Origin: Methylophilus sp. QUAN | Lineage (GTDB): Bacteria; Pseudomonadota; Gammaproteobacteria; Burkholderiales; Methylophilaceae | Direction of reading: 5' to 3' | Assembly (NCBI RefSeq): GCF_015354445.1 | Contig: NZ_JADKYT010000001.1 | Location: 744,001-808,000 of the forward strand | DNA length: 64,000 nt | Shown here: positions 21,341-38,471 of the stretch, in pieces | Layout: each line of letters begins with the position of its first letter | Numbering within the stretch: position 1 is the stretch's first letter | The notes under the pieces: generated by a model | Seen by the model: only the letters and a program-made list of their open reading frames with translations | The model's database searches: none | What the model was told of the DNA's origin: nothing | Made by a program: the position numbers and the translations under genes

Positions 21341-21412
21341 ATGTGGACTAAACCAGCTGCTACTGAAATGCGTTTTGGCTTTGAAGTGACAATGTACGTC
21401 ATGAACAAGTAA
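21341..21412 (+). CDS. pqqA: PQQ precursor peptide PqqA (orphan)
   Basis: This short gene encodes 23 residues: [19 protein letters not shown] followed by VMNK. It shows the PqqA signature, with the Glu-x3-Tyr pair (E-V-T-M-Y) that is crosslinked by PqqE to form pyrroloquinoline quinone. AAGGAG lies six bases upstream of the ATG. No pqqB-E gene follows: a strong terminator closes the unit instead, so it is a free-standing copy, presumably supplying extra precursor for a methanol dehydrogenase cofactor. Too short for ordinary gene calling. Confidence 0.93.
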
Positions 21413-21466: not shown

Positions 21467-21549
21467 TGCGGGCTTGGCGTTTTGTGCCATCACCTCATCC
21501 GTCACCCATCAAGGTTCAACACCCGTCTCAGGTACTTATCTCTCAAAAT

Positions 21550-21557
21550 TCCTACGC
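21550..21557 (+). promoter_or_regulatory. Recurrent element TCCTACGC upstream of DUF2171 gene
   Basis: One of a set of TCCTACRS elements found 92-112 bases before start codons in this region; here 99 bases before the ATG. It is followed by CAAGACTCAG, similar to the CCAAATCAG that follows other copies. Confidence 0.4.
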
Positions 21558-21648
21558 AAGACTCAGCCAGCGTGCACTAGGCGTTGGTATAGCAACGCAG
21601 CACACTCAAGGCTCAACGTTTTTCGCCCTTGCGGGACAAGGAAACATC

Positions 21649-21876
21649 ATGATTGATCCTAATGAAATTAAAGCCGATATGCCGGTCACCACGGCGCAGG
21701 CAGAACACTTTGCTGTTGTAGACCGCCTCGAAAGTGACGATGTCATCAAACTCAAAAAGGATGGAGCCGGTGTGCATCACTATATTCCTGTGAGCTGGGT
21801 GCTATCCACCGAAGGCGGTATTGTGAAAATCAACCGGACACTGGCCCAGATTACCCAGGATTGGCAAGCCGACTAG
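21649..21876 (+). CDS. Small DUF2171-like protein
   Basis: The start at 21649 follows AAGGA with six-base spacing; the longer open frame upstream is unlikely to be translated. The 75-residue acidic protein (DPNEIKADMPVTTAQAEHFA ... VVDRLESDDVIKLKKDGAG ... HYIPVSWVL) matches the PRC-barrel-like DUF2171 family, small soluble proteins often induced by stress. It probably forms a beta-barrel fold. Stands alone between two terminators. Confidence 0.78.
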   Translation: MIDPNEIKADMPVTTAQAEHFAVVDRLESDDVIKLKKDGAGVHHYIPVSWVLSTEGGIVKINRTLAQITQDWQAD

Positions 21877-22038
21877 TGTGTGCGTCATGTTCAGCCTAGA
21901 TATGAGTAAATCGGACGATGAGAGCGCATCAGTCGTCGGGTAGTTTTGCAACCCCATCTGAATAAATTAGATTGTTCTGTTACTGGCTGCTATATGCTGA
22001 CTCCAGCGTTGTTTAACGACAGTAAATAACGCGCATAA

Positions 22039-22069
22039 ACGAAGCCTCGCCCATCAGGCGAGGCTTCGT
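22039..22069. terminator. Bidirectional terminator
   Basis: A perfect 13-bp stem (ACGAAGCCTCGCC/GGCGAGGCTTCGT) with a five-base loop between converging DUF2171 and DUF2383 genes. Confidence 0.85.
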
Positions 22070-22083
22070 GAGCTTGCTTAATA

Positions 22084-22548
22084 TTAGTGTGCAGCGGCCT
22101 CTGCACGTGCTGCATCGCGCAGCTGTTTCACCTGGTCATGGTTGCGCTTGGCGCCTTCAAGCTGCCGCACCACCACAAAGCGGATGTGGGTGGGCAAGTC
22201 TTTTTCCGCCGCTTTGCGATAGGCAGCCAATGCAACATCTTCACCACGCTCGGTTTCGTTTAACACGGCCACCGTATCGTTACTGGTCAATGCGGTTTTA
22301 ATGGCAATCCAGCGTCTGTGTAAGGCACCGCCCAGACTGGTGGATGAGGCGGGCTCACCTCCTAAAGCGCGCACTAAGTCCTGTAGCTCTTTTACGCTGG
22401 TTGCAACCTCGTGTGAGCGGCGCAAAAAGAATGTTTTGAGTTGCGGCTCGTCGACGTGTTCTGCAGAAGAGCGAAAGCCTTCTTCGCCATCTTTGGATAC
22501 CTCAATCAAGTCATTCAAAGTAGAAATAATTTCGTCATTGTCTGCCAT
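22084..22548 (-). CDS. PA2169-family four-helix-bundle protein (DUF2383)
   Basis: The 154-residue product matches DUF2383/PA2169 proteins: DEIISTLNDLIEVSKDGEEG at the N-terminus, then SSAEHVDEPQLKTFFLRRSH and GERGEDVALAAYRKAAE-type ferritin-like helices. Glu and His residues are spaced as in metal-binding four-helix bundles. These proteins are associated with stress and stationary phase. The A-rich C-terminus (AARAEAAAH) is ordinary. A TCCTACAG element lies 97 bases before its start. Confidence 0.85.
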   Translation of the reverse strand: MADNDEIISTLNDLIEVSKDGEEGFRSSAEHVDEPQLKTFFLRRSHEVATSVKELQDLVRALGGEPASSTSLGGALHRRWIAIKTALTSNDTVAVLNETERGEDVALAAYRKAAEKDLPTHIRFVVVRQLEGAKRNHDQVKQLRDAARAEAAAH

Positions 22549-22637
22549 GTTTACTCTTCAAATATGTCATCAACTATTGAGAAGTGTCAGTATGCCCTTG
22601 GCGTTGTGCTGGTTGCATCGGATGAATCCGCAAATAT

Positions 22638-22645
22638 CTGTAGGA
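22638..22645 (-). promoter_or_regulatory. Recurrent element TCCTACAG upstream of DUF2383 gene
   Basis: Reads TTCCTACAGATATTTGC on the minus strand, 97 bases before the DUF2383 start codon. It is a member of the shared set. Confidence 0.4.
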
Positions 22646-22741
22646 ATGACTGTATAGCTGTGACTGATATTGCAATGGCAAGCCACTGGGCGTAGACGAG
22701 GGTTGATTTTCCGGTCCGCGCAGATGCAAGCATCTGCATCT

Positions 22742-22749
22742 TCCTACAG
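22742..22749 (+). promoter_or_regulatory. Recurrent element TCCTACAG upstream of YIP1-like gene
   Basis: Reads TTCCTACAGCCAAATCAG, 94 bases before the YIP1-like ATG and about 97 bases from the divergent copy for DUF2383. Nearly identical to the copy at 26462 over 16 bases. Confidence 0.45.
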
Positions 22750-22835
22750 CCAAATCAGTGCATGTCTTGTGGCATGGCGAAGTTGGCTGTTTTTTAATAG
22801 CAGGTATTCACTTTGTTCATTTCAAGGAGCGCCTG

Positions 22836-23441
22836 ATGAATCCCATCCACCTGTTTAATTACGTGTCGCCTAACAGGCGCGAGGCAAGCTTGCTGGTTGC
22901 CGATAAACCCAGTGTGTCGCAACTAATGCTGTTTTATATCTTACCGTTATCGTTGATTCCGTGCGTGATGATGTATTTGCGGCTGTATCACAATTACCCC
23001 AAATTGTTTTTTGATAATCTGCCTGGTAACCGCCTGTTGATGGTGAGTGCCGAGCTGTTGTTTTTGCAATTGGGCGTGTTGCTGGTAATGGCCTGGATTA
23101 CGCAAAACCTGGCCGAGATGGTCAATATCAAGCCTGGCTTTCGTGACTCCCTGCTGATGATGACCATTGCCACTACGCCGATGTGGTTAACCTCCCTTTT
23201 TTACATTGTGCCCAGCTTGAGTTTTAACGTCATTGTGCATGGTGTGGCCGTATTGGCATCGGTGTTACTGGTGTATCGGGGTGTGCGATATGTGTTTGGT
23301 ATCCGCGAACGCGGTGCATTGGTCACACTCAGTATGGCGATTGTATGTACCGCTGGTTTGGGGTTCGCGGTGATCCTGATTGGTTCGCTGATCTCGTGGG
23401 AAGCCATCGAACAATTGCAGTTTGCGGTCAAGAAGCTGTAG
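22836..23441 (+). CDS. YIP1-family membrane protein
   Basis: ATG 22836 has AAGGAG eight bases upstream. The 201-residue protein has about five hydrophobic segments (LMLFYILPLSLIPCVMMYL, LLFLQLGVLLVMAWI, LLMMTIATTPMWLTSLFYIV, VIVHGVAVLASVLLVYRGV, LSMAIVCTAGLGFAVILIG) arranged as in Yip1/DUF1282 proteins. Function of bacterial members is not established. Located just before a converging response regulator gene. Confidence 0.78.
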   Translation: MNPIHLFNYVSPNRREASLLVADKPSVSQLMLFYILPLSLIPCVMMYLRLYHNYPKLFFDNLPGNRLLMVSAELLFLQLGVLLVMAWITQNLAEMVNIKPGFRDSLLMMTIATTPMWLTSLFYIVPSLSFNVIVHGVAVLASVLLVYRGVRYVFGIRERGALVTLSMAIVCTAGLGFAVILIGSLISWEAIEQLQFAVKKL

Positions 23442-23452
23442 GCTGCCTGCCA

Positions 23453-24109
23453 TCAGGCCACTTCCCTGGCTGATTTGCTGGTTGCCCCCGCTACGGGGGC
23501 CAAGTGGTATTTCAGGGCGTAGTAAATCAGCGCTGCATTATTCTGCACATGCATTTTTTTGAGGATCTTCGATCGAAACACACTGACAGAGCCTGGCGCA
23601 ATCTCCAGTTCCATCGCGATTGAATTCACGGCCTGGCCTTTAATCAATTTGAAAAATACCTGCAGCTCACGCAGTGACAAACGTTCATGCAGCATGGGCT
23701 CGCTGTTGGCAGCCATTTGCTGATGCTGAGGCGAAACATAGGCTTGTCCGCGGGCGATGGCATTGATAGCCGGAATCACTTGCGCGCTGTCTGTGGTGTA
23801 AGACAAATAACCCGCGCAACCCAGCCGGATAAAATGGATCATGCGCTCGACCCGTTCACTGCCGTTGATAATGAGGACAGGCAGGTCAGGAAAAGCTTGC
23901 TTGAGGTCGCAGAATACTTCCAGGCCATTGGTTTCCGCTGCGGACACATCCAAAATGATGACATCGTAGGTATGCTCGCGGATTTTCAACATGGCGTCAT
24001 GCACACTGCCAGCCTCATCGGCCAGGTGCACGCTATGGTCGTCATTGACCAGTGCCTTTAATGCGCAATGACTCAGCGCATGGCCGTAGATTAACAATAT
24101 ATTTTTCAT
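23453..24109 (-). CDS. LuxR/FixJ-type response regulator with degenerate receiver
   Basis: A 218-residue protein with receiver and C-terminal LuxR-type HTH (LSLRELQVFFKLIKGQAVNS, KILKKMHVQNN). The receiver is altered: the acidic pair that binds Mg2+ after beta-1 is replaced by Tyr8-Gly9 (LLIYGHAL), and the Lys near the end of beta-5 is lost (GYLSYTT). The phospho-accepting Asp54 (VIILDVS) remains. It therefore probably works without classical phosphorylation, or through another signal. No histidine kinase gene is adjacent. Confidence 0.85.
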   Translation of the reverse strand: MKNILLIYGHALSHCALKALVNDDHSVHLADEAGSVHDAMLKIREHTYDVIILDVSAAETNGLEVFCDLKQAFPDLPVLIINGSERVERMIHFIRLGCAGYLSYTTDSAQVIPAINAIARGQAYVSPQHQQMAANSEPMLHERLSLRELQVFFKLIKGQAVNSIAMELEIAPGSVSVFRSKILKKMHVQNNAALIYYALKYHLAPVAGATSKSAREVA

Positions 24110-24139
24110 GGCTTGTTATCCATTTCAAGCCTAATAAGG

Positions 24140-24949
24140 CTATTTTTGTGCGATTTTGCGATTGCCTTTCACGTGCCAGATCACATTGCCGACGTCATCT
24201 GCCACCAGCAGGTAGCCTCTTTTATCGAGTAGCACATTGGCAGGACGTCCTTGTGCGGCGCCATTCTCCTGCTGGATGTCAGTCAGCACATCCATTGGTG
24301 TTTTCGCCAGTTTTTCCTGCACTGCCGGTCGCATCAATATCGTTTGATCAGCCGTTTCAGGATCGGATGTTTGTGTCATCTGTGTTTGCCCTGCCTGGTA
24401 GGGGAACAGGAGCAGGGCCTCGGCATTGGCGACATAAAATGTGTCGCCCACCAGCGCCACGCCCAGCGGGGCAGCGATATCCTTGATAAACACATGGCGT
24501 TCGTCAGCGATGCCATCGCCATCATTGTCACGCAGCAGGGTAATCTGGTGTTGGCTACCTGCCAGCTCCTCGGCTTCATGCATCCATTTTCTGGCGATCC
24601 AGTTTTTCAGGCTAAACGCTGTATTTGTAGGCTGGGGATAACTCTCTGCCACCAGAATGTCGCCATTGGGCAAGGCATACAGCCAGCGCGGGTGATGCAA
24701 GTCATTGGCAAAAGCAAGCACATTCGTGCCTGGCGTTGAGATCGCCTTTTTTCCTTCTGGTACGCGCATGGTTTCTGCCGCCTGCGTGGTTGGAAACCAG
24801 CCTGACTGGCTGATAGATGCGTTAGAGACGGCGCGTATTCCTGGCGATTGCAGTAGTTTTGATGGTTGCGAATAACTGCTGAATGCCAGCATACAAACCG
24901 CGGCAGTAAGTAGGCGTCGCTGAGGGGCGGTTGTGAGTATGTTGGGCAT
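24140..24949 (-). CDS. Shortened sorbosone/glucose-dehydrogenase-like protein
   Basis: The first half matches the sorbosone dehydrogenase family: LAFANDLHHPRWLYALPNGD, LLRDNDGDGIADERHVFI and VALVGDTFYVANAEALLLFP. The C-terminus GRPANVLLDKRGYLLVADDV matches its end. As I recall full members they are about 430 residues, with central segments carrying INHHWTKN and a GLRNP motif; here the 269 residues jump from the FPYQAGQ segment to PMDVLTD, so roughly 160 central residues are absent. It has an N-terminal hydrophobic segment. Probably a partial beta-propeller without a normal PQQ site. It is followed on the same strand by no close gene; the CFA-like gene lies 25 bases upstream. Confidence 0.75.
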   Translation of the reverse strand: MPNILTTAPQRRLLTAAVCMLAFSSYSQPSKLLQSPGIRAVSNASISQSGWFPTTQAAETMRVPEGKKAISTPGTNVLAFANDLHHPRWLYALPNGDILVAESYPQPTNTAFSLKNWIARKWMHEAEELAGSQHQITLLRDNDGDGIADERHVFIKDIAAPLGVALVGDTFYVANAEALLLFPYQAGQTQMTQTSDPETADQTILMRPAVQEKLAKTPMDVLTDIQQENGAAQGRPANVLLDKRGYLLVADDVGNVIWHVKGNRKIAQK

Positions 24950-24974
24950 GTGGCTATTTCCTGGTCGGTTAAGA

Positions 24975-26261
24975 TTATCTGCGTGTCGCCAGCATCTGGT
25001 GCATGCCGGTCACGCCCTGTTCAAACTGGATGGCGCTAGCAGTCATAGCCAGACGCCAAATACGGTAACTACGCTCCCCCATGCTGGCAGCAATCGACGC
25101 ATGTTGCGCCTCCAGGTTTGCCAGCCACTGGCGCAAGGTCATCACATAGTGTCGACGCAAGCCCTCTACATTAAATACGTCAAATCTGGCGCTATCCATG
25201 TGTTGTAACAGATGGGCGAAAGAGGTTAACTCGCCTGCCGGGTATAGCTGACGGTTGATAAAGGCGGTGGAGGCGTCTTGCTGGCCAGCCGGATTTTCCG
25301 CCGTGATCACATGGCTCAAAAATAAACCGCCGGGTTTGAGTGCTGCGTGTACCTTGGCTAGGAAGTCCGGATAATGCGCTGCGCCTAGATGGTCGGCAAT
25401 GCTGATGCAAGCTGCTTTGTCGTAACTGCCCAGCGCAGGCAGTGTGCGATAGTCCACCAGCTCTATCTTGACCAGATGCGTCAGGCCTTGTTGTTGCACT
25501 TGCTTGAGTGCATACGCATATTGCGTCGGGTTGTGTGTGATACCGTGTACAAACACCCCGTAATGCTTGGCCGCCCAGCAGGCCAGTGTGCCCCAGCCGC
25601 AAGCAATATCCAGTAGCGTGTCACCATGTTGCAAATGCAGTTTCTGGCAGATCAGTGTTAACTGTGTTTGCTGCGCTTGCGCCAGGGTGTGTGTTGGGCT
25701 TGCGAAATAAGCACACGAGTGCAGCATCTGTTCACCCAGCCAGCGCTGATAAAAGTCCTCAGGCACATCGTAACTGAGTGCAATGCCATGTGAGGAGGGA
25801 GCGCTTGCGGATTGAGATTGTGTCGGGGAGTGAGGTGTGTGGGCAGTGTGTTCGGGTAGCACCTGTTGGTTATTGGCCAGGGTCAGTGCCCGGAAGACCA
25901 GGCCTAGTTTTTCATGCAGCGGCAAAGATAGAGATTCGAAATGTTCACGCAACTGCATGGCGGCATGAAAGTCCCCCTGAATCTGTACTTCACCTGAGCA
26001 ATAGGCCTCCACCAGGCGTTTAGGGTTGCTAAACCATACCATGTCACGTAATACCGATGCCTGTTCCAGGCAAAAGGTAAACGCTGGTGCGCCGTCGCCG
26101 ATCGTCAGCATACTGCCGTTCCACAAGCGCACGGCAAAGGCCACTGGGTAGTCCTGAAACAAACGGTTCAGAATATAGTGCGCCTGAGTAGTGTCGCCAC
26201 TCGCGGTTGATTGCTCCAGTGACAATGGCATGGCGAAAGCATTAACGGGATAACTACTCAT
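24975..26261 (-). CDS. cfa: Cyclopropane-fatty-acyl-phospholipid synthase-like methyltransferase
   Basis: The 428-residue protein has an N-terminal sterol-carrier-like part and a SAM methyltransferase domain. The CFA motifs are present: YDVPEDFYQRWLGEQMLHSC (His-Ser-Cys in place of the usual YSC), SAM loop LLDIACGWGTLACWAAKHY, GITHNPTQYAYA, and VHAALKPGGLFLSHVI. It would methylate unsaturated fatty-acyl chains to a cyclopropane ring in the inner membrane, protecting against acid and drying. It lies 25 bases upstream of the sorbosone-DH-like gene on the same strand. Confidence 0.85.
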   Translation of the reverse strand: MSSYPVNAFAMPLSLEQSTASGDTTQAHYILNRLFQDYPVAFAVRLWNGSMLTIGDGAPAFTFCLEQASVLRDMVWFSNPKRLVEAYCSGEVQIQGDFHAAMQLREHFESLSLPLHEKLGLVFRALTLANNQQVLPEHTAHTPHSPTQSQSASAPSSHGIALSYDVPEDFYQRWLGEQMLHSCAYFASPTHTLAQAQQTQLTLICQKLHLQHGDTLLDIACGWGTLACWAAKHYGVFVHGITHNPTQYAYALKQVQQQGLTHLVKIELVDYRTLPALGSYDKAACISIADHLGAAHYPDFLAKVHAALKPGGLFLSHVITAENPAGQQDASTAFINRQLYPAGELTSFAHLLQHMDSARFDVFNVEGLRRHYVMTLRQWLANLEAQHASIAASMGERSYRIWRLAMTASAIQFEQGVTGMHQMLATRR

Positions 26262-26343
26262 GGCGTACTCCTACTCAAAAAGCTTATTTTTAATATGGGC
26301 TGGCATCAGCATGCATATGGTTTGCTGATCCCAATGCGCGGCC

Positions 26344-26368
26344 CTGGCAGATGAATACCATCTGCCAG
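26344..26368. repeat. Inverted repeat in divergent intergenic region
   Basis: A 10-bp perfect inverted repeat (CTGGCAGATG/CATCTGCCAG) with a five-base loop, followed by A/T sequence; could be an mRNA hairpin or a binding site. Confidence 0.5.
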
Positions 26369-26419
26369 CAGTGTAAAAATGAAGCCGATAACCAAGTATC
26401 GGGCAGGGGCTGATTGTGT

Positions 26420-26437
26420 TGTCAGACCAGTCTGACA
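26420..26437. promoter_or_regulatory. Palindromic operator-like site
   Basis: TGTCAGACCAGTCTGACA is two 8-base inverted half-sites (TGTCAGAC/GTCTGACA) around CA. It lies in the divergent region between the CFA-like gene and the small secreted protein gene, 25 bases before the TCCTACAG element. The form suits a TetR- or GntR-type dimer; no such regulator is in the window. Confidence 0.45.
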
Positions 26438-26461
26438 CAGAGTGTTTTCACCCGTGGTAAC

Positions 26462-26469
26462 TCCTACAG
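26462..26469 (+). promoter_or_regulatory. Recurrent element TCCTACAG upstream of small secreted protein
   Basis: CTCCTACAGCCGAATCAGT, 102 bases before the ATG of the next gene; almost the same as the copy at 22742. Confidence 0.45.
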
Positions 26470-26563
26470 CCGAATCAGTTGACTGCCGACGGCGACGCGG
26501 TATTTGCGGCCATACAATGCATGATGCAGTTGTATCTTTCTTATATTTTAAGGAGAAGACAGT

Positions 26564-26890
26564 ATGCAAAAGACACTTACCTGGATGTTATTGGCTGGCT
26601 CATTGTGTTGCAGTGTGTGGTCGGGAAATGCTTGGTCTGCGCCGCCAGTGAACAATGCCGTACCGCCTTGCGAAGATGCCGCCATTTCAAATAAACCGTC
26701 CTGCAATATCGATTCTGACAGCGTCAATGTGCCACCGAAAATGCCATATGAGCGGGGTGTCATCGTCCCGCCAGAGGTGCCAGCTGAAGGTTTGCCTAAC
26801 CAGGATAAACGGCGCCAGAACATTCAGCAGCCGCGACAGGATCCACGGGAACCTGTGGCTCCAGCCCCTGATAATCATTTGAAAGATTAA
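26564..26890 (+). CDS. Small secreted proline-rich protein
   Basis: A 108-residue protein with a signal peptide ending NAWSA, AAGGAG eight bases before the ATG. The mature part is Pro/Asn-rich (VPPCEDAAISNKPSC with two cysteines, then KMPYERGVIVPPEVPAEG and DKRRQNIQQPRQDPREP). No domain is recognised; probably periplasmic and disordered. It precedes an SDR gene on the same strand, about 40 bases away. Confidence 0.7.
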   Translation: MQKTLTWMLLAGSLCCSVWSGNAWSAPPVNNAVPPCEDAAISNKPSCNIDSDSVNVPPKMPYERGVIVPPEVPAEGLPNQDKRRQNIQQPRQDPREPVAPAPDNHLKD

Positions 26891-26930
26891 AGTCGCCAGC
26901 GCCCATTTGGCCACGACCAAGGAGAACGCA

Positions 26931-27794
26931 ATGGAAGTTGTTGAAGACAGAATTAATCCGCCGCAGCATCAATATGTGCAACCAGGCCTGGAAGCGGATA
27001 TGCATCCGCAGCCCCAATATATTGAAGAGGCGTATGCCGGAAGCGATAAGCTCAAAGGCAAGGTGGCCGTGATTACTGGCGGTGATAGCGGCATAGGCCG
27101 TGCAGTGGCTGTGCATTTTGCGGCAGAAGGGGCGGATCTCGTGATTGTGTACCTGGACGAGCACCGGGATGCGGCAAAAACGAAACAACTGGTGGAGGCC
27201 TATGGCAGCCAGTGTTTGCTGATTGCAGGCGATGTGGCAGACGAACGCTTTTGTGAACAAGTCATACACGACACGCTACAGCAATTTGGCCAACTGGATA
27301 TTGTGATCAACAATGCCGCCCAGCAGTTTCCGCAGACCAGTATTGTGGAAATCAGCCAGCGGCAGCTCGAGCATACTTTCCGCACCAATATTTTCTCCAT
27401 GTTTTATATGGTGAAGGCAGCCTTGCCGCATCTGCCGAAAAAAAGTCATATTATCAATACCGCGTCGGTGACGGCTTATCGTGGTAGCCCTGAACTGTTG
27501 GATTATTCAGCCACCAAAGGCGCCGTTGTGTCGTTTACACGCTCATTATCGCGACAGTTGGTGCATAAGGATATTTACGTCAATGCCGTGGCGCCGGGGC
27601 CAGTGTGGACACCGTTGATTCCCGCCAGTTTTGATGAACAAAAAGTCAGCGAGTTTGGTAGCCAGGTGCCTTTAAAGCGACCTGCACAACCAAGTGAAAT
27701 TGCCCCTGCATATGTGTTTCTGGCCAGCCAGGCATCGTCATATATGACCGGGCAGGTGATACACCCGAATGGTGGTGAAATCATTAATGGTTAA
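26931..27794 (+). CDS. SDR-family oxidoreductase, YghA/GsiB-stress type
   Basis: ATG 26931 follows AAGGAGAA. The 287-residue protein has an N-terminal extension (QPGLEADMHPQPQYIEEAY) before the SDR core, a trait of the YghA-type stress SDRs. Motifs: TGGDSGIGRAVAVHF, NNAAQQFPQ, Ser in INTASVTAYRG, YSATKGAVV, VAPGPVWTP and the C-terminal GQVIHPNGGEIING. Likely NAD(P)-dependent with unknown substrate. It closes with a strong terminator. Confidence 0.9.
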   Translation: MEVVEDRINPPQHQYVQPGLEADMHPQPQYIEEAYAGSDKLKGKVAVITGGDSGIGRAVAVHFAAEGADLVIVYLDEHRDAAKTKQLVEAYGSQCLLIAGDVADERFCEQVIHDTLQQFGQLDIVINNAAQQFPQTSIVEISQRQLEHTFRTNIFSMFYMVKAALPHLPKKSHIINTASVTAYRGSPELLDYSATKGAVVSFTRSLSRQLVHKDIYVNAVAPGPVWTPLIPASFDEQKVSEFGSQVPLKRPAQPSEIAPAYVFLASQASSYMTGQVIHPNGGEIING

Positions 27795-27817
27795 TTGACC
27801 ACTTTCCTGGTCGAATT

Positions 27818-27843
27818 AAGCCTGGTGTATGCCAGGCTTTTTT
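27818..27843 (+). terminator. Terminator after SDR gene
   Basis: Stem AAGCCTGG/CCAGGCTT with a six-base loop, followed by a run of T; 23 bases after the SDR stop. Confidence 0.85.
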
Positions 27844-27877
27844 ACGCCGACTATTTCCGGGCGCGACGTCCGAATTC

Positions 27878-27885
27878 TCCTACAG
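27878..27885 (+). promoter_or_regulatory. Recurrent element TCCTACAG upstream of cytochrome cL gene
   Basis: TTCTCCTACAGCAAATTCC, 112 bases before the ATG of the cytochrome gene. Part of the shared set. Confidence 0.4.
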
Positions 27886-27989
27886 CAAATTCCGCCTTTG
27901 TTACATGGGCGCACATTTTCCTTTTATTCATAATGGGTTGCGTCATCAATCGCGTTCATAAAACACGCAATCATCATGAGGAGAACGAC

Positions 27990-28541
27990 ATGAATCACAA
28001 GCTTGGCTTAGGCCTGTTGGTATTAATTGCTGGACTCTCTGCCTGTGACAAACAGGCATCGACAACTGGTGCTGCCGGAGAATCTACTGCTGGAGCGTCT
28101 GCTAGTGGTGAGGCCATTAAGTTTGTTAAAACACAAGATGGATCTCCGCTGGAAATCAAGGCCGAGCTGTTCGATACCCCTGCCGCCAAAGAGTTTTTAG
28201 CCACCGGTAAAAACCCCTATGTGGGCAAGGAAGATGCGATTGCCCAGGGTAAAAAAACCTTCCAGCTTTATTCCTGTACGCAATGCCATGGTCCGGATGC
28301 CGGTGGGCAGGTCGGGCCAGCGCTGACCGGGCCTAATTACAACTACGCCAAAGATGCCACGAATAAAGGCATGTTTGAGACAGTCTGGAATGGCACCAAC
28401 GGCGGGATGGGCGCCAAAGGGAAAGGCCTGATGGATCCCTCAGACCCCAACAACGGTATTAGCCCTGACGAGTTGCTGAAAGTCATTGCCTGGATACGTA
28501 GCCATGGCAGCCTGACGGGCAATGAAGAGGCCGCTTCATAA
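27990..28541 (+). CDS. Cytochrome cL-like lipoprotein (MxaG/XoxG family)
   Basis: ATG 27990 follows GAGGAGAA. The product (183 residues) has a lipobox (LGLGLLVLIAGLSAC) with Asp at +2, in E. coli a sign of inner-membrane retention. The c-type haem motif is CTQCH, followed by GQVGPALTGPNYNYAKDATN, GMFETVWNGTNGGMG and DELLKVIAWIRSHG. This pattern fits the cytochrome cL family that accepts electrons from PQQ methanol dehydrogenases. A membrane-anchored cL is unusual because cL is typically soluble in the periplasm. No dehydrogenase gene is adjacent. A Thr/Ala/Ser-rich linker separates the anchor from the haem domain. Confidence 0.85.
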   Translation: MNHKLGLGLLVLIAGLSACDKQASTTGAAGESTAGASASGEAIKFVKTQDGSPLEIKAELFDTPAAKEFLATGKNPYVGKEDAIAQGKKTFQLYSCTQCHGPDAGGQVGPALTGPNYNYAKDATNKGMFETVWNGTNGGMGAKGKGLMDPSDPNNGISPDELLKVIAWIRSHGSLTGNEEAAS

Positions 28542-28545
28542 TTTA

Positions 28546-28553
28546 TCCTACAG
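28546..28553 (+). promoter_or_regulatory. Recurrent element TCCTACAG upstream of second small secreted protein
   Basis: Lies five bases after the cytochrome stop and 110 bases before the next ATG. Suggests an independent promoter for the following gene. Confidence 0.4.
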
Positions 28554-28655
28554 GTTTTTTGTAAAGACACTGACATACAGCTGTTAACCACATCATTAGC
28601 ATGAGTCTAAGCCTGCCACATCTGGCAGGTGACTTTAAAACTTTATGAGGATGCG

Positions 28656-28961
28656 ATGATGAAAAAATTACTTTCAATACTGTTAGCCAGTACGTTTTTA
28701 TGTTCCATGACGGTTGCTTTTGCGGCACCACAAGATAACGCGCCGCCCGCCCAGCAGCAAAAAAATCAGGTGCCTGATACGCATCAAAACGGCGATTATC
28801 TGGAGCCGCAGCCTGACAATAATAATGCGGCTACCACTGGTAGCAGTGATGCTCAGGGGCGGCAGGGCAGTGCTAATAAACAGTCCAAGCCGGGCAACAT
28901 TGAAAAAAGCAAACGTTTTCATGAAAAGCCCCAAGACGGCGGCACGGGCGTGAAGCAGTAA
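28656..28961 (+). CDS. Small secreted Gln/Asn/Pro-rich protein
   Basis: The ATG at 28656 (or 28659) follows ATGAGG. The 101-residue protein has a signal peptide (KKLLSILLASTFLCSMTVAFA) and a low-complexity hydrophilic part (APPAQQQKNQVPDTHQNGDY, NNNAATTGSSDAQGRQGSAN). It resembles the small secreted protein at 26564 in style but not clearly in sequence. No domain. The product is likely disordered and periplasmic. Confidence 0.65.
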   Translation: MMKKLLSILLASTFLCSMTVAFAAPQDNAPPAQQQKNQVPDTHQNGDYLEPQPDNNNAATTGSSDAQGRQGSANKQSKPGNIEKSKRFHEKPQDGGTGVKQ

Positions 28962-28980
28962 TGGCCCGCATCAGTCGATT

Positions 28981-29019
28981 GCCCTGCATGACTTGAATTG
29001 TGTTTAAGTCTGGCAGGGC
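28981..29019 (+). terminator. Long hairpin between small secreted protein and copper-storage gene
   Basis: Outer stem GCCCTGC/GCAGGGC and inner stem GACTTGAA/TTTAAGTC with one wobble pair form a strong hairpin 19 bases after the previous stop. It lacks a U tract, so it may be a stabiliser or processing site. Confidence 0.55.
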
Positions 29020-29070
29020 AGGGTGACTAAGTTCGGAGTATTCTTAAACGCTACTAAGCTGGAGAAAGCC

Positions 29071-29409
29071 ATGACTGAAAAAGACCTGAAGTTATGTATG
29101 GAACTGTGCAAAAAATGTGCAGACACTTGTGAAAGCTGTGCGATCGCCTGTGAAACTGAGGCCAACCCCATGTTACGGACCTGTATTGAGCTGGATATGG
29201 ATTGCGCGGATTTTTGCCGCCTCACGGCTTCGTTTATTGCGCGTCGCAGCGACTTTGTTGAACTGGTTTGCCAGGACTGTGCGGAAATTTGTACCGCTTG
29301 TGCCGATCAATGTGAGCAACATGCCTCTGACCATTGCCGTGCGTGCGCACAGGCTTGCCGCAGTTGCGCAGAAGCATGCCTGAAAGTAGGCGCCGCTGAG
29401 TTCGCATAA
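29071..29409 (+). CDS. csp: Copper storage protein, Csp3-like (four-helix bundle)
   Basis: The ATG at 29071 follows GGAGAAAG. The 112-residue protein has 19 cysteines, mostly as CxxxC/CxxC along helices: ELCKKCADTCESCAIACE, DMDCADFCR, VCQDCAEICTACADQCEQ and ACAQACRSCAEACL. This is the pattern of Csp (DUF326) proteins, which fill a four-helix bundle with Cu(I). No signal peptide is present, so it is cytosolic (Csp3-like), unlike exported Csp1 of methanotrophs. It may buffer copper for c-type cytochrome or oxidase maturation. Confidence 0.9.
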   Translation: MTEKDLKLCMELCKKCADTCESCAIACETEANPMLRTCIELDMDCADFCRLTASFIARRSDFVELVCQDCAEICTACADQCEQHASDHCRACAQACRSCAEACLKVGAAEFA

Positions 29410-29430
29410 ATGCAGATGCGCTACATGGAT

Positions 29431-29485
29431 AGGTGGATGGGCCGGTGGAGATGGGTGACGGTTTCACCATCCTGCCCATTTATCT
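29431..29485. terminator. Convergent terminator hairpin
   Basis: Outer stem AGGTGGATGGGC/GCCCATTTATCT (G-T pairs included) encloses a second hairpin (GATGG/CCATC). It lies between the Csp gene and the sheath gene and ends two bases before the sheath stop. Confidence 0.65.
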
Positions 29486-29487
29486 AT

Positions 29488-30939
29488 TCAACCAGCTAGC
29501 TTCACGGTGAGTTTCAATATCACAAATTCGGCAGGCCTTACTGCAGCCATGCCAATTTCAACCCGCATCAAGCCTTGCGCAATATCATTTGCCGTCATGG
29601 TTTTGCCCAGGCCGATATTCACAAAAAATGCCTGTTCCGGTTTACTGCCTTGCAACGCCCCTTGCCGCCACAACAAGATTAAAAAGTTTTCCACCATGGC
29701 TTGCGCACGCACCCAGGTATTAGCGTCGTTAGGCTCAAATACCATCTGCTGCAACCCTTGGCTGACTGAGACCTCTACCCAGCTAAACAATCGTCGCACA
29801 GGAATATAGCGCCACTCATTGTCGTTACCCGCCAGTGTTCTCGCTCCCCATATCTGCGTGCCTTTGCCCGTAAATTTGCGGATGATATTGATCGATTTGC
29901 CAGCGTCCACATCCACGTTGTAATCCTGTTGCTGTGTGCTGGTGAGGTTAAACACTGGCCGTATCACCTCGTTAAGTGACACATTAGCGGGCGCCTTCCA
30001 GACGCCACGCTTCTGGTCGACCGCGGCATATACGCCCGCGACGGCACCCGAGGACGGTAAGGTATTCAAAGCGATATTCGCAGCATCTATCCATTGTTTG
30101 GCGAGCATGTATTGTGCGTATAGCTTTTGGTTGAGCGACGCTAATTGCGCCTGGGATTCAGGCGTCGCCTTGACTAACCCGGCAGCGCGTATTTCTGCGA
30201 TAAGCGCCTGCATACCTTGGTCCTGGGTGAGCTGCTCAGCACTGACCACACTGCCATCACTTTTATATTTAAACAACAGTTGGTTAAAGTCAGTGTTTCT
30301 AGCCAGGCTGGCCACCAGCCACGGCCCATAGGCTGCACCATATTTCAGGTGATTCATGCCCAGGCTTTGCCTGAAACGCGCGGCTTCGGTGGCGAAGTCA
30401 GCCGGATTATGTTGCAGACGCAAATCAAACAACACAAACCGGTTTTGTACCTGAGCACATTGCGCCAGCGCAGTCGCTTCCAGCGTATGTGTCTCGCGGC
30501 ACAAGGCAGCCTCTGGCATGGCGATCAGCGTTGGCAGCGGGTCTGTCTCTATGGCGCTTAAACCAGCTGCCAATGTGGCTGCTGAAATCTGGTCGTTGTA
30601 ATTGCCGACGGAGACGATCACGCACGGACCGCCACCATTGGCAAAAAACAGCCGCACGCTGTCATAGAGATAAAACGGTTGATCGACCGTAGCGTCAATC
30701 ACTTGGTCTTGTGCATCCAGCCACAGCGTCACCGCCGATCTGGCTGCGCCACCAAACAGGCGTTCATAATCCAATAAGGAGTTGATTTGTGTGGCGACGA
30801 GCGATAATGACACACCTTGCCTGTCCGCTTTTTCGGTATAGCCTATCAATGCCGGGATCGCCGTTTCCAGGGTTGGAATACTGGGCGGGAACTTGCTCAC
30901 TTCTTCAATATAAACGCCGGGCGTTTTATAAACAGCCAT
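29488..30939 (-). CDS. Contractile tail sheath protein (orphan)
   Basis: The start at 30939 gives the hallmark sheath N-terminus AVYKTPGVYIEEVSKFPPS. Other family features are LPTLIAMPEAALC, RGVWKAPANVSLNEVIRPVF and IIRKFTGKGTQIWGARTLAG, and near the C-terminus YIPVRRLFSWVEVSVSQGLQ then FEPNDANTWVRAQAMVENFL. These are the Phage_sheath and C-terminal sheath domains of contractile phages and extracellular injection systems. Length 483 is normal. No tube, baseplate, spike, ATPase or capsid gene is next to it: neighbours are a Csp gene and a BON gene, so it is not part of a prophage seen here. Confidence 0.9.
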   Translation of the reverse strand: MAVYKTPGVYIEEVSKFPPSIPTLETAIPALIGYTEKADRQGVSLSLVATQINSLLDYERLFGGAARSAVTLWLDAQDQVIDATVDQPFYLYDSVRLFFANGGGPCVIVSVGNYNDQISAATLAAGLSAIETDPLPTLIAMPEAALCRETHTLEATALAQCAQVQNRFVLFDLRLQHNPADFATEAARFRQSLGMNHLKYGAAYGPWLVASLARNTDFNQLLFKYKSDGSVVSAEQLTQDQGMQALIAEIRAAGLVKATPESQAQLASLNQKLYAQYMLAKQWIDAANIALNTLPSSGAVAGVYAAVDQKRGVWKAPANVSLNEVIRPVFNLTSTQQQDYNVDVDAGKSINIIRKFTGKGTQIWGARTLAGNDNEWRYIPVRRLFSWVEVSVSQGLQQMVFEPNDANTWVRAQAMVENFLILLWRQGALQGSKPEQAFFVNIGLGKTMTANDIAQGLMRVEIGMAAVRPAEFVILKLTVKLAG

Positions 30940-31059
30940 GATTGATGTCCCCGAATGTGGCACACGTGATGACAACAGAGTTCAAGCCATTATAGGCTGT
31001 TTAGCCTAGCAGGGGAGAGGGAGCTTGCAGAAGGCGAGAGAGGGCTAGAACGTAAAATC

Positions 31060-31090
31060 GCCCATAGGAATCGCGCTGATTCCTATGGGC
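31060..31090 (-). terminator. Terminator of the BON gene
   Basis: A perfect 13-bp stem (GCCCATAGGAATC/GATTCCTATGGGC) with a five-base loop, followed on the minus strand by GATTTTACG; 20 bases after the BON stop. Confidence 0.85.
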
Positions 31091-31109
31091 AAGGTCATGT
31101 GCAGAACAC

Positions 31110-31418
31110 TTATTGTGCAACCACAATATCGTCTTTCACGGCAGTCACACCTTTCACATTTTTGGCCAACAGCACTGCTTTGTCTGCTTCGGCTTTCGAT
31201 TTCACCACACCAGACAATTGCACCAGGCCATTGCTGTCGGTTTCCACTTTAATGTCAGTCGCACTCACCGCTTTGTCTTTGGCAAACGCTGTTTTCACTT
31301 TTGCGGTGATCACAGAGTCTTCAACCTTGGTGCCAATTGAGTCACCATCCGCGGCAAAGCCAGCCATAGGCAATGTCAAAGCACTCACTAACAACAGAGA
31401 TTTGAATGTGTTTTTCAT
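31110..31418 (-). CDS. Periplasmic BON-domain protein (OsmY-like)
   Basis: A 102-residue protein with signal peptide (SLLLVSALTLPMAGFA) and a single BON domain (KVEDSVITAKVKTAFAKDKA, IKVETDSNGLVQLSGVVKSK, AVLLAKNVKGVTAVKDDI). OsmY carries two; single-domain versions are common. BON proteins bind membranes or lipids and are induced by osmotic stress. A TCCTACGG element is 92 bases before the start. Confidence 0.9.
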   Translation of the reverse strand: MKNTFKSLLLVSALTLPMAGFAADGDSIGTKVEDSVITAKVKTAFAKDKAVSATDIKVETDSNGLVQLSGVVKSKAEADKAVLLAKNVKGVTAVKDDIVVAQ

Positions 31419-31502
31419 GATGATTCCTTGTTGAGTTAAATTATCGAGGTTTCATTATTAAAAAAACACGTCCGATGATACATACAGCGAATGCTGATAA
31501 TT

Positions 31503-31510
31503 CCGTAGGA
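31503..31510 (-). promoter_or_regulatory. Recurrent element TCCTACGG upstream of BON gene
   Basis: Minus strand, 92 bases before the BON start, followed by AATTATCAGC, reminiscent of the other members. Confidence 0.4.
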
Positions 31511-31528
31511 CATGGCTGACGTGGGTTT

Positions 31529-31536
31529 TCCTACAT
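31529..31536 (+). promoter_or_regulatory. Similar element TCCTACAT upstream of hydrolase gene
   Basis: Plus strand, 71 bases before the hydrolase ATG. Weaker match by spacing and last base. Confidence 0.3.
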
Positions 31537-33926: not shown

Positions 33927-34514
33927 ATGGATATACATTTAGAAAACAACTTACTCACAACGCAGCACTATTTGGCACAGCGTGATATGGCCCAGCAAGA
34001 CTCTGTCATCACAGAAACATTCAATAAAGAAAAAGCCAGGCTGCGCAATTTCATCCGCAAAAGCGTACCGAATGCCGGTGACGCCGATGATATTTTGCAG
34101 GATGTGTTCTATGAGTTTGTTTCAGCCTACCGTTTACCAGAGCCGTTGGAGCAAGTGGGTGCTTGGTTATACCGCGTGGCAAGAAACCGCATTATTGACC
34201 GTTTTAGAAAGCAAAAGCAGGAAGTCACGCTAGAGCGGGACGAAGATGACGATGCACTCTGGCTAGAGTCTATCCTTTCCATTGAAACCGAAACCCCGGC
34301 GTCAATTTACGAAAGAAAAATGCTGGTTGAGCACGTGATTGAAACACTGAATCAACTGCCCAGTGAGCAACGGCAAGTGTTTATCGCACATGAGTTAGAT
34401 GGCAAAAGTTTCAAACAAATTGCCGCAGAAACAGGTGTTGGCATCAACACTTTATTAGCAAGAAAAAGGTATGCAGTGACTTTCCTCAGAGAGCAACTGC
34501 ATGCCAGTGACTAA
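33927..34514 (+). CDS. ECF RNA polymerase sigma factor
   Basis: The 195-residue protein has sigma-70 region 2 (FIRKSVPNAGDADDILQDVF, GAWLYRVARNRIIDRFRKQK) and region 4 (LPSEQRQVFIAHELDGKSFK, IAAETGVGINTLLARKRY). An acidic insert ERDEDDDALWLES lies between. The next gene encodes a small membrane protein, which could be its anti-sigma factor though it has no recognised domain. Confidence 0.9.
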   Translation: MDIHLENNLLTTQHYLAQRDMAQQDSVITETFNKEKARLRNFIRKSVPNAGDADDILQDVFYEFVSAYRLPEPLEQVGAWLYRVARNRIIDRFRKQKQEVTLERDEDDDALWLESILSIETETPASIYERKMLVEHVIETLNQLPSEQRQVFIAHELDGKSFKQIAAETGVGINTLLARKRYAVTFLREQLHASD

Positions 34515-35043: not shown

Positions 35044-35592
35044 GTGAGAGATGACATCGAGGATTTGATAGCTCGAATAATAGATAGGGATGAGGATGCT
35101 TTTAATGAGTTGTATGAAGCTACTTTTAGCAAGATCTATAGTTTGGCTTTGAAAATTACCAAAGACCCTGCGACTTCTGAAGAAGTGGTTGAAGATACTT
35201 ATTACCAGGTATGGCAAGAAATTTACCGCTACGATTTCAACAAGTGCCCGTTGTATAACTGGATGTTAATCATTTGCCGTTCTCGTGCCATTGATGCGTT
35301 GAGAAAGCGCAATGCGATACCTGAAATGGTGGTTAATTACGATTGGGCCATAGAGTCAACAGACTTGTCAGCAGATGATAGATTGCAGGACAAGCAGACG
35401 TCGCTGGCCGTTGTGAAGGCTTTGTCAGAAATTAAGCCATTGCAAAGGCAGCTTTTGCATCATGTTTTTTATTATGGATTATCGCATCAGGAAATCTCTC
35501 AGCTGATGAATATGCCGCTCGGATCCGTGAAATCAACCATTAACCGGGCACAAAAATCATTAAGAGAGAAACTCAAAGGTGAACAGTTTTGA
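35044..35592 (+). CDS. ECF RNA polymerase sigma factor (ChrR-linked type)
   Basis: The GTG at 35044 follows GGAATGA. The 182-residue protein has region 2 (EEVVEDTYYQVWQEIYRYDF, WMLIICRSRAIDALRKRN) and region 4 (LKPLQRQLLHHVFYYGLSHQ is nearly the pattern; then EISQLMNMPLGSVKSTINRA). Its stop overlaps the start of a cupin gene of ChrR type, a sigma/anti-sigma arrangement known for singlet-oxygen and related stress. Confidence 0.9.
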   Translation: MRDDIEDLIARIIDRDEDAFNELYEATFSKIYSLALKITKDPATSEEVVEDTYYQVWQEIYRYDFNKCPLYNWMLIICRSRAIDALRKRNAIPEMVVNYDWAIESTDLSADDRLQDKQTSLAVVKALSEIKPLQRQLLHHVFYYGLSHQEISQLMNMPLGSVKSTINRAQKSLREKLKGEQF

Positions 35593-37162: not shown

Positions 37163-37583
37163 TCTCAAATAATCAACAATCTCCCTCACCGGTCCGTGAG
37201 GACATCTCTTTGATCTCATTTTCTAACGATTAGTCAACACTAAAGTAAATAATGAAGTGCTGACTGCATCCATTTTCAGATGCATTACGTATATCAGTTA
37301 CGAGAAAAGTTTTTCACTCTCGAATTAAGCATCGGCTGAAGCAGCACATTTGTGTGCGCGATTACAGCTATTTTATTAACGCGATAATTTGTTACGTGAG
37401 AATATTTCTTGGGTGTGGTTGCTATAAGCCGTTTGGCAATGGACATAAAAACGACTTTTTGAGGTTGATGTTGGGAGCGTAAGTGGTGTGGGCTTGGCTT
37501 GGATAAAGCTTCCTCCGGTTAAGACCACACTGTTTTGTAAGTCATTTTAATAATTGAAAATATATTTTTTGAGAGAGGTTAGC
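37163..37583. other. 421-base intergenic region before PEP-CTERM gene
   Basis: No gene visible. It holds a weak hairpin (CCTCAC/GTGAGG near 37184-37201) after the hydrolase stop and A/T-rich stretches suited to a promoter. I see no further repeat or recognised site. Confidence 0.5.
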
Positions 37584-38471
37584 ATGAAGAAGAGTGTTAT
37601 TTACAACGCAATATTGGGCACAAGTTTGCTAGTGGCAGCTTCCCAAGTAAATGCAGATACATTATATGGCGTGAACAGCAGCAGCATTGCTGTGATTGAT
37701 ACCTTGAATATAGGTGCGGTTTCCTACATCAATATTTCAGGGTTGGCAGCGAATGAAAGATTGCTGGGCGTTGACCTCAGGCCAACTGATGGCTTGGTCT
37801 ATGGGCTCACCAGCCAGAACAGGTTGTATACACTGGATATGACCACTGGTGCAGCAACCTTCAAGAGTAGCCTCACCGGCGCCTCCCTGACCGGGCAGTC
37901 TATCGGCATCGACTTTAACCCGGTTGCAGATTTTGCTGGTAACGCTTCGCTACGTGTAGTCACGGGCACTGGCAACAACTATGCGGTTAACGCCAATACA
38001 GGCGTGGTAGGCAATACCGCCGGTGCAAATATTGGCAGTGGTTATACCGCCGTTGCTTACACAAATTCAAATCCTGGCGTTACCCCAGCCAGCACGGGGT
38101 TGTATTACGTGAATACCACCACAGACTCATTAAACTTTCTGGCGAGTGGATTTAATAACCCGGCCGGGGCTGGTGGCATCCAGACCGTTGGCGCATTGGG
38201 TATAGATGCGTTGTCTGCGAATGGCTTTGACATTCTTGGCAACGGTAAGGCCTATGCCTTGTTCAACCTGGATAATGGCACCCTGGATTCGCAATTGTTT
38301 TCGATTAACCTGATGACCGGTGCCGCTACTTATATCACTACTTTAAACGGCACTTTCAATGGGTTGACTGGCGTAGCCACTGTGCCTGAGCCAACAAACG
38401 TTGCATTCCTGCTGGCAGGCCTGGGTCTGATGGCTGGTGTGGTCACACGTCGCGCTCGTCAACGCGCATAA
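37584..38471 (+). CDS. PEP-CTERM-anchored DUF4394 protein
   Basis: The ATG 37584 follows GAGAGAGG. The 295-residue protein has a signal peptide (VIYNAILGTSLLVAASQVNA), a DUF4394 beta-propeller-like body (LLGVDLRPTDGLVYGLTSQN, IGIDFNPVADFAGNASLRVV, TGNNYAVNANTGVV) and a C-terminal sorting signal VPEPTNVAFLLAGLGLMAGV then basic RRARQRA, the PEP-CTERM motif cleaved by an exosortase. It would be anchored or released to exopolysaccharide. No exosortase gene is in the window. Confidence 0.9.
   Translation: MKKSVIYNAILGTSLLVAASQVNADTLYGVNSSSIAVIDTLNIGAVSYINISGLAANERLLGVDLRPTDGLVYGLTSQNRLYTLDMTTGAATFKSSLTGASLTGQSIGIDFNPVADFAGNASLRVVTGTGNNYAVNANTGVVGNTAGANIGSGYTAVAYTNSNPGVTPASTGLYYVNTTTDSLNFLASGFNNPAGAGGIQTVGALGIDALSANGFDILGNGKAYALFNLDNGTLDSQLFSINLMTGAATYITTLNGTFNGLTGVATVPEPTNVAFLLAGLGLMAGVVTRRARQRA

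Follow-up and report, generated by a model that had tools for sequence, protein, structure and literature searches.

In the genome of Methylophilus sp. QUAN (3.15 Mb), we found that the word TCCTACAG, which recurs ahead of stress-type genes in a 64-kb stretch (bases 744001-808000 of contig C1; hereafter the window), is the most strongly conserved segment of a promoter element that stress-type genes across Methylophilaceae have in common. The longer element has three parts: TGTCNG-N6-CCTACA, which forms an 18-bp box; AWTCAG, a second box placed 22 bp further along; and, at +51 counted from the T of TCCTAC, a -10 hexamer resembling TATAAT. We consider it fairly probable from the sequence evidence that the repeated word is the strong half-site in the activator region of a NarL/FixJ response regulator, and that the candidate regulator is a response regulator encoded on contig C2 (the C2 response regulator). 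The element is the strongest part of this case, and the assignment of a protein to the site would be its weakest step. The stress role of the genes is deduced from their families. Comparisons were made with 61 related genomes, 37 of Methylophilaceae and 24 from other families of the order; the closest named relatives found are Methylophilus species.

A sequence-only reading of the window had pointed to seven copies of TCCTACR placed 92-112 bp ahead of seven gene starts, on both strands and each oriented toward its gene, and we recovered this arrangement. Measured from the T of TCCTAC, the start codon is 99 bp away for DUF2171, 97 for DUF2383, 94 for YIP1, 102 for a small secreted protein, 112 for cytochrome c, 110 (or 113) for a second small secreted protein and 92 for BON. 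These distances were not taken from our simple gene caller, which overextends some starts, so that its inside and intergenic labels are wrong for some window copies of TCCTACR. The families named earlier for the DUF2171, DUF2383, Yip1, cytochrome c and BON genes agree with Pfam, in which the two small secreted proteins have no match. An eighth copy (31529) lies, as had been noted, 71 bp from the start of an alpha/beta hydrolase gene and lacks both the TCAG box and the -10 spacing; a ninth TCCTACR in the window (37722) is within the open reading frame 37554-38471.

Counts of the short word were mixed. TCCTACRG occurs six times in the window against 1.70 expected, a number reached by none of 100 dinucleotide shuffles, and TCCTACRS, which includes the copy ending in GC, occurs seven times against 3.44 expected, with 10 of 100 shuffles reaching seven. 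In the genome as a whole, where the sequence-only reading proposed to count the motif, four of the six TTCCTACAG copies precede genes, two are inside genes, and the word is not enriched. Due to this lack of genome-wide enrichment and the frequency of TCCTACRS in shuffled sequence, the short word alone is indecisive. As background we took 400 kb outside the window, made up of twenty 20-kb pieces spaced evenly over the genome. It holds 15 TCCTACR (13 within called genes and 2 intergenic), and none of the 15 has a gene start 70-130 bp downstream or a TCAG at +13.

The longer element was defined from sites across the genomes selected by TCCTACR plus TCAG alone, so the -10 hexamer played no part in choosing them. 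The 67 sites selected were reduced to 57 non-redundant ones by dropping order-level (L065, L081), other-spacing and near-identical sites. Aligned sites read about TGTCNGANNATTCCTACANNNAAWTCAG, followed by CATAATG 51 bp after the T of TCCTAC. Among 90 offsets (20-109), a TATAAT-like hexamer peaks exactly at +51, with at least four of six matches in 41 of 57 sites (z 5.25; the next best offset has z 1.83), and conservation across columns -14 to +69 falls chiefly in the boxes and the -10. Of 86 centres tested, -2.5 shows the strongest symmetry (z 3.37). Left half-sites lie exactly 22 bp apart, in the regulon sites and in the C2 operon alignments described below. This 22-bp repeat is unsupported by self-similarity of the profile: with the 18-mer, shift 22 is the best within 14-27 yet falls below 28, 29 and 31, and with the left half alone it is outscored by 26 and 28-31. 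At the -35 position of the aligned sites no TTGACA-like run is present, and from its likeness to TATAAT the -10 appears to be of the housekeeping type.

To score the element independently of the window, the sites of the own genome and its near twin were excluded, and 43 of the remaining 48 were used in the alignment (two sites of G022, two of G048 and one odd copy of G005 were left out) from which a sequence-only model, R1, was made. Searched with R1, the own genome yields 13 places at E<=1. Eleven of them have E<=0.0101, and each of these eleven lies ahead of a gene whose start is about 92-151 bp downstream; we regard the remaining two (E 0.107 and 0.36) as doubtful. Five of the strong sites are in the window, ahead of the DUF2171, YIP1, small secreted protein, cytochrome c and BON genes, and six are outside it. 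Four of these six form a second cluster on contig C3 (419-428 kb), ahead of three DUF3309 genes and one 149-aa gene, and the others precede a gene for a 125-aa secreted protein (C1:236614) and a gene for a 59-aa membrane-type protein (C3:326513). No R1 match was found in the 400-kb sample. Moreover, the extended pattern TTCCTACANNNNAWTCAG occurs at 57 places in 17 of the 61 genomes, and its reversed control at none in all 61.

Conservation at individual loci is consistent with this picture. Among 17 DUF2383 loci of the genus, a number that includes the own locus and five loci of a second paralogue, TCCTAC is kept upstream in 10, TTCTTAC or TTCTGAC is found in 5 and neither in 2; several of these loci also keep the stretch after TCCTAC and the CATACT hexamer, and TTCCTACA is kept upstream of several DUF2383 orthologues. 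The second paralogue, with 64-67% identity, occurs in five Methylophilus genomes (L060-L064), two of which have TTCCTACA upstream of it, one TTCTTACA and two neither. Named Methylophilus loci have similar footprints ahead of YIP1, DUF2171, BON and cytochrome genes, and sites similar to the BON element occur in L040, L041 and L043. The TTCCTACA of the eighth copy is kept in L043 and L044. The fixed spacing to the -10, the conservation across species and the presence of the same element ahead of other genes of the own genome give good support to the earlier suggestion of a shared activator site.

Which protein might act at this site? BvgA and EvgA, two response regulators considered below, have a recognition helix similar to that of three own response regulators, which share a common type (TVSTYR/TVSMYR/SVSVFR). 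Our two candidates, one in the window and one on C2, have a receiver and a GerE/LuxR helix-turn-helix domain, both above the Pfam cut-offs. In the C2 response regulator (G000:C2:104991-105626) the phosphorylation pocket (DD, D, K) is complete. It lies in an operon with a DUF883 gene and a holin-like gene, a CHASE3-HisKA_3 kinase is divergent from it, and the conserved locus also holds REC and BON genes nearby. The window response regulator (23453-24109, minus strand; Pfam Response_reg and GerE) has a degenerate receiver: Asp54 is kept, the DD acidic pair is replaced and the Lys is lost in all seven orthologues aligned. It is a paralogue of the C2 candidate and possibly a second regulator. In G021 its orthologue (G021:C1:2301221-2301869) is split over two frames, and the R1 count there is 7. 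In another genus, the pocket is also altered (LLVDGY) in a second response regulator (G049:C54:2537-3157, L177), which adjoins short-chain dehydrogenase (SDR) and DUF421-type genes, judged by eye, and R1 sites, and is perhaps an independent pseudo-receiver paralogue. A BvgS-like kinase in the C3 cluster, suggested by periplasmic domains, was rejected, the proteins there ending by eye in GGDEF/EAL-like sequence and not in kinase domains.

The C2 operon carries a relative of the element. In an alignment of 13 loci judged by eye (L183 was left out and L179 gave no usable alignment), a box of the form TGTCAGA-N4-TCTGAC or TGTAGG-N6-CYTACA precedes the operon in 12, with one CGTAGG and one degenerate right half as exceptions among the loci, and in 12 of 13 a second left half (mostly WTCRG) follows 22 bp on, together with a TA-rich -10. 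The second box of the own operon is TATCGG-N7-CCGATA, and the C2 operon of G011 has a CCTACA site that is found by R1 (25.3 bits). The recognition helix varies with the box, Ser with CTGAC and Thr with CYTAC, and this covariation is partial.

Presence of the C2-type response regulator also separates the genomes. Of the 25 family genomes that have a C2-type response regulator, 22 have at least three R1 matches, and none of the 12 that lack one do (Fisher P 2.5e-7); when the genus itself is set aside, the rest of the family gives 5 of 5 and 0 of 10 (P 0.0003). These cross-genome counts were made with strict filters, the genomes are kin, so the P values overstate independence, and C2-type was assigned by identity and not by tree (matches of 39-43%, the next at most 34%). 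Within the genus, 13 genomes with an intact window paralogue have a median of 13 sites and 6 genomes with the C2 type only have a median of 3 (P 0.0008), G021 being left out of this comparison for its broken window response regulator.

In the model that we favour, a dimeric NarL/FixJ-family response regulator, with the predicted general half-site CYKAYA, would bind the 18-bp inverted-repeat box TGTCNG-N6-CCTACA, centred at about -65. A second dimer would occupy the AWTCAG... box, which lies 22 bp further downstream with its centre near -43, next to a poor -35. The two dimers would bring RNA polymerase, probably carrying the housekeeping sigma factor, to the TATAAT-like -10 at +51 to +56. The two centres assume a start 6-7 nt after the -10. 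Transcription would then start about 30-50 nt ahead of the ATG, which would explain the constant spacing of 92-112 bp. The C2 response regulator would also control its own operon, and the receiver-degenerate window paralogue probably acts on the same sites. The element, its spacing and conservation, its genome-wide specificity, its relative at the C2 operon and its co-occurrence with the C2 type are read from the sequences themselves, and we infer from them binding, activation, the transcription start, a signal and the protein-to-site assignment.

The arrangement is best read as putative tandem dimer sites with BvgA-like geometry and GacA-like boxes. BvgA is a response regulator of the LuxR helix-turn-helix family, and its kinase BvgS is of the hybrid type. 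BvgA binds as head-to-head dimers spaced by 22 bp, of which the proximal dimer lies directly against an imperfect -35, and its promoters Pfha and Pptx also have inverted half-sites with TTCCTA, centres 22 bp apart and a poor -35 (PMC7250471). In our comparison with the Bordetella Pfha site, TAAGAAATTTCCTA (PMC7250471), aligning TTTCCTA with ATTCCTA would put the centre of BvgA's inverted heptads at -2.5, the centre of highest symmetry here. The BvgA promoters differ in that the half-site here is extended to CCTACA or CTGACA, and in that two boxes are seen here, compared with three at Pfha and six at Pptx; unlike in the BvgA system, the genes here are of stress type and the kinase is CHASE3-HisKA_3.

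The upstream activating sequence of GacA is given as TGTAAG-N6-CTTACA (PMC4950607). It has the same 18-bp 6-N6-6 geometry as our boxes, and C2 operon boxes such as TGTAGG-N6-CTTACA are one base off it. UvrY/SirA/GacA is the best NCBIfam model for both response regulators, yet the GacA/UvrY model PRK09483, with a cut-off of 280 bits, gives 178.9 bits for the C2 and 95.3 for the window protein. The targets observed here, in contrast with GacA, are protein genes, in a search that did not extend to small RNAs. EvgA of Escherichia coli, a NarL-family response regulator like both candidates and among their solved-structure relatives, binds inverted repeats (PMC3720670); with its model PRK09958 (cut-off 251 bits) the two proteins score 111.1 and 57.9 bits. 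Since neither candidate reaches the GacA or EvgA cut-offs, the regulator would work like those systems and is not filed as GacA or EvgA.

Several observations weigh against the C2 response regulator acting at this element. The bare word TTCCTACAG occurs 6 times in 3.15 Mb, compared with 11 for the reversed pattern. The DUF2383 element scores low with R1 (10.0 bits) and the copy ahead of the second small secreted protein gene is missed. The own C2 operon box is CTGAC, not CCTAC, and is also missed by R1, with weak matches only (at most 7.4 bits) when filters are off. Two genomes break the pairing of helix and box: in G022, Thr goes with CTGAC, and in G010 a degenerate box accompanies Ser. The second-highest symmetry is at centre +4.5 (z 2.87), which the model does not predict, and the centre of the second box, +19.5, is only sixth (z 1.69), the palindrome of this box being weak among the regulon sites. 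Shared descent confounds the co-occurrence, which also rests on strict filters, on a C2 type defined by identity and on a model whose training genomes mostly have both response regulators. Finally, in the 24 genomes of other families, none of which has a C2-type match, R1 matches at E<=0.5 number 14 and are spread over 8 genomes; G031 has four (best 2.6e-5; one at G031:C1:2317963-2318034) and G039 three. The matches in G031 and G039 either arose by chance or indicate that the element occurs more widely than the C2 response regulator does, and because of these other-family matches we lowered our confidence in the C2 reading slightly, to the fairly probable grade given above.

An alternative is that the receiver-degenerate window regulator is the main activator and works free of phosphorylation, the C2 regulator having a box of its own. 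It sits in the same gene cluster in six named Methylophilus loci, the sites are more numerous in the genus where it is present, and the C2 operon box of these species is CTGAC where the regulon box is CCTAC. However, the element is present in G001, G006, G011, G016, G022 and G047, which have no close orthologue of it, and presence of the C2 type separates family genomes better, outside the genus too; we regard this alternative as unlikely. The two proteins could also form a heterodimer on asymmetric boxes, as BldM and WhiI do in Streptomyces, where two response regulators with atypical receivers act together and palindromic and non-palindromic sites are distinguished (PMC4125116). The regulon boxes are indeed asymmetric, their left half resembles the half-site of the own species' symmetric C2 operon box, and BldM Group II and Group I sites offer a parallel (PMC4125116). 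But asymmetric sites (TGTCNG or GTCNG with CCTACA) persist in the same six genomes, in contrast to what BldM-WhiI would suggest, so a heterodimer is not needed, and we give this idea only a slight chance.

The sequence-only reading had offered an extracytoplasmic function (ECF) sigma factor or a stationary-phase regulon as the possible cause of the shared promoter, and neither was upheld. ECF promoters have the -10 about 16-17 bp from the -35, whereas here the conserved partner is a TATAAT-like hexamer 51 bp on and no second element was seen at ECF spacing (offsets 20-109, columns -14 to +69). Two ECF genes (33927-34514 and 35044-35592) lie 2.4-3.5 kb from the last copy of the cluster; we found no evidence tying these nearby genes to the element, and an ECF promoter served by them or others is very improbable. 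As in RpoS regulons, the products here are of stress type, BON-domain and small envelope proteins among them. In contrast, rpoS is above the NCBIfam cut-off in 0 of the 37 Methylophilaceae genomes, some of which are incomplete (the own genome is rated 100% complete), and in 11 of the 24 genomes from other families. Lastly, if a short word had clustered by chance, or were a dispersed repeat, this would fit the insignificance of TCCTACRS in the window and the unenriched TTCCTACAG, but the 57 matches of the extended pattern against none for its reversed control, and the concentration of conservation in the boxes and -10, leave this explanation next to no credence.

In the window, the element ahead of the DUF2171 gene (21649-21876, plus strand) spans 21539-21606 on the plus strand, with the 18-bp box at 21539-21556, the second box from 21561 and the -10, CACACT, at 21601-21606 (R1 23.9 bits). 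Upstream of this promoter, the short gene 21341-21412 (+) has a 23-residue product that resembles a PqqA precursor peptide, and a terminator-like hairpin follows it (by eye). On the minus strand, the DUF2383 gene (22084-22548) is preceded by the element at 22589-22656 (box 22656-22639, -10 CATACT 22594-22589), the one with the low score. The YIP1-like gene (22836-23441, plus; Yip1 domain) follows an element at 22731-22798 (plus; box 22731-22748, -10 TTTAAT 22793-22798) that scores 28.2 bits and is an exact TTCCTACANNNNAWTCAG. Plus-strand elements at 26451-26518 (-10 TACAAT 26513-26518; 17.9 bits) and 27867-27934 (-10 CATAAT 27929-27934; 28.2 bits) precede the small secreted protein gene (26564-26890) and the cytochrome c gene (27990-28541), respectively. 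A short-chain dehydrogenase gene (26931-27794, plus; Pfam) follows the former, likely in the same operon, by position only.

The second small secreted protein gene (28656-28961, plus) has a weak copy at 28535-28602 (plus), which has TCCTACAG only, without TCAG and with a poor -10; a DUF326 cysteine-rich gene (29071-29409, plus) adjoins this gene. The BON-domain gene (31110-31418, minus) has its element at 31454-31521 (minus; box 31521-31504, -10 AATAAT 31459-31454; 23.9 bits). The eighth copy, a TTCCTACA at 31528-31535 (plus), has neither second box nor spacing and was missed by R1, and its membership in the set is doubtful. Within the stress cluster there is also a phage-tail-sheath-like gene (29488-30939, minus; Pfam Phage_sheath_1C), and four named relatives (L040, L041, L043 and L044) have similar open reading frames at the corresponding position (by eye).

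A description of this regulon was not found in the open-licence literature, as covered by titles and the starts of abstracts. The analysis offers a promoter model at base level and a named candidate regulator for DUF2171, DUF2383, DUF3309, BON and YIP1-like genes, so that uncharacterised stress-associated families gain candidate control in a family of methylotrophs (methanol-eating bacteria). More tentatively, a NarL-type response regulator and a CHASE3 kinase might run a general stress regulon in Methylophilaceae, which a pseudo-receiver paralogue might have enlarged in Methylophilus, as a two-component substitute for a stress sigma factor. The promoter model also points to a way in which bacteria lacking a recognisable RpoS might co-ordinate such stress-associated genes.

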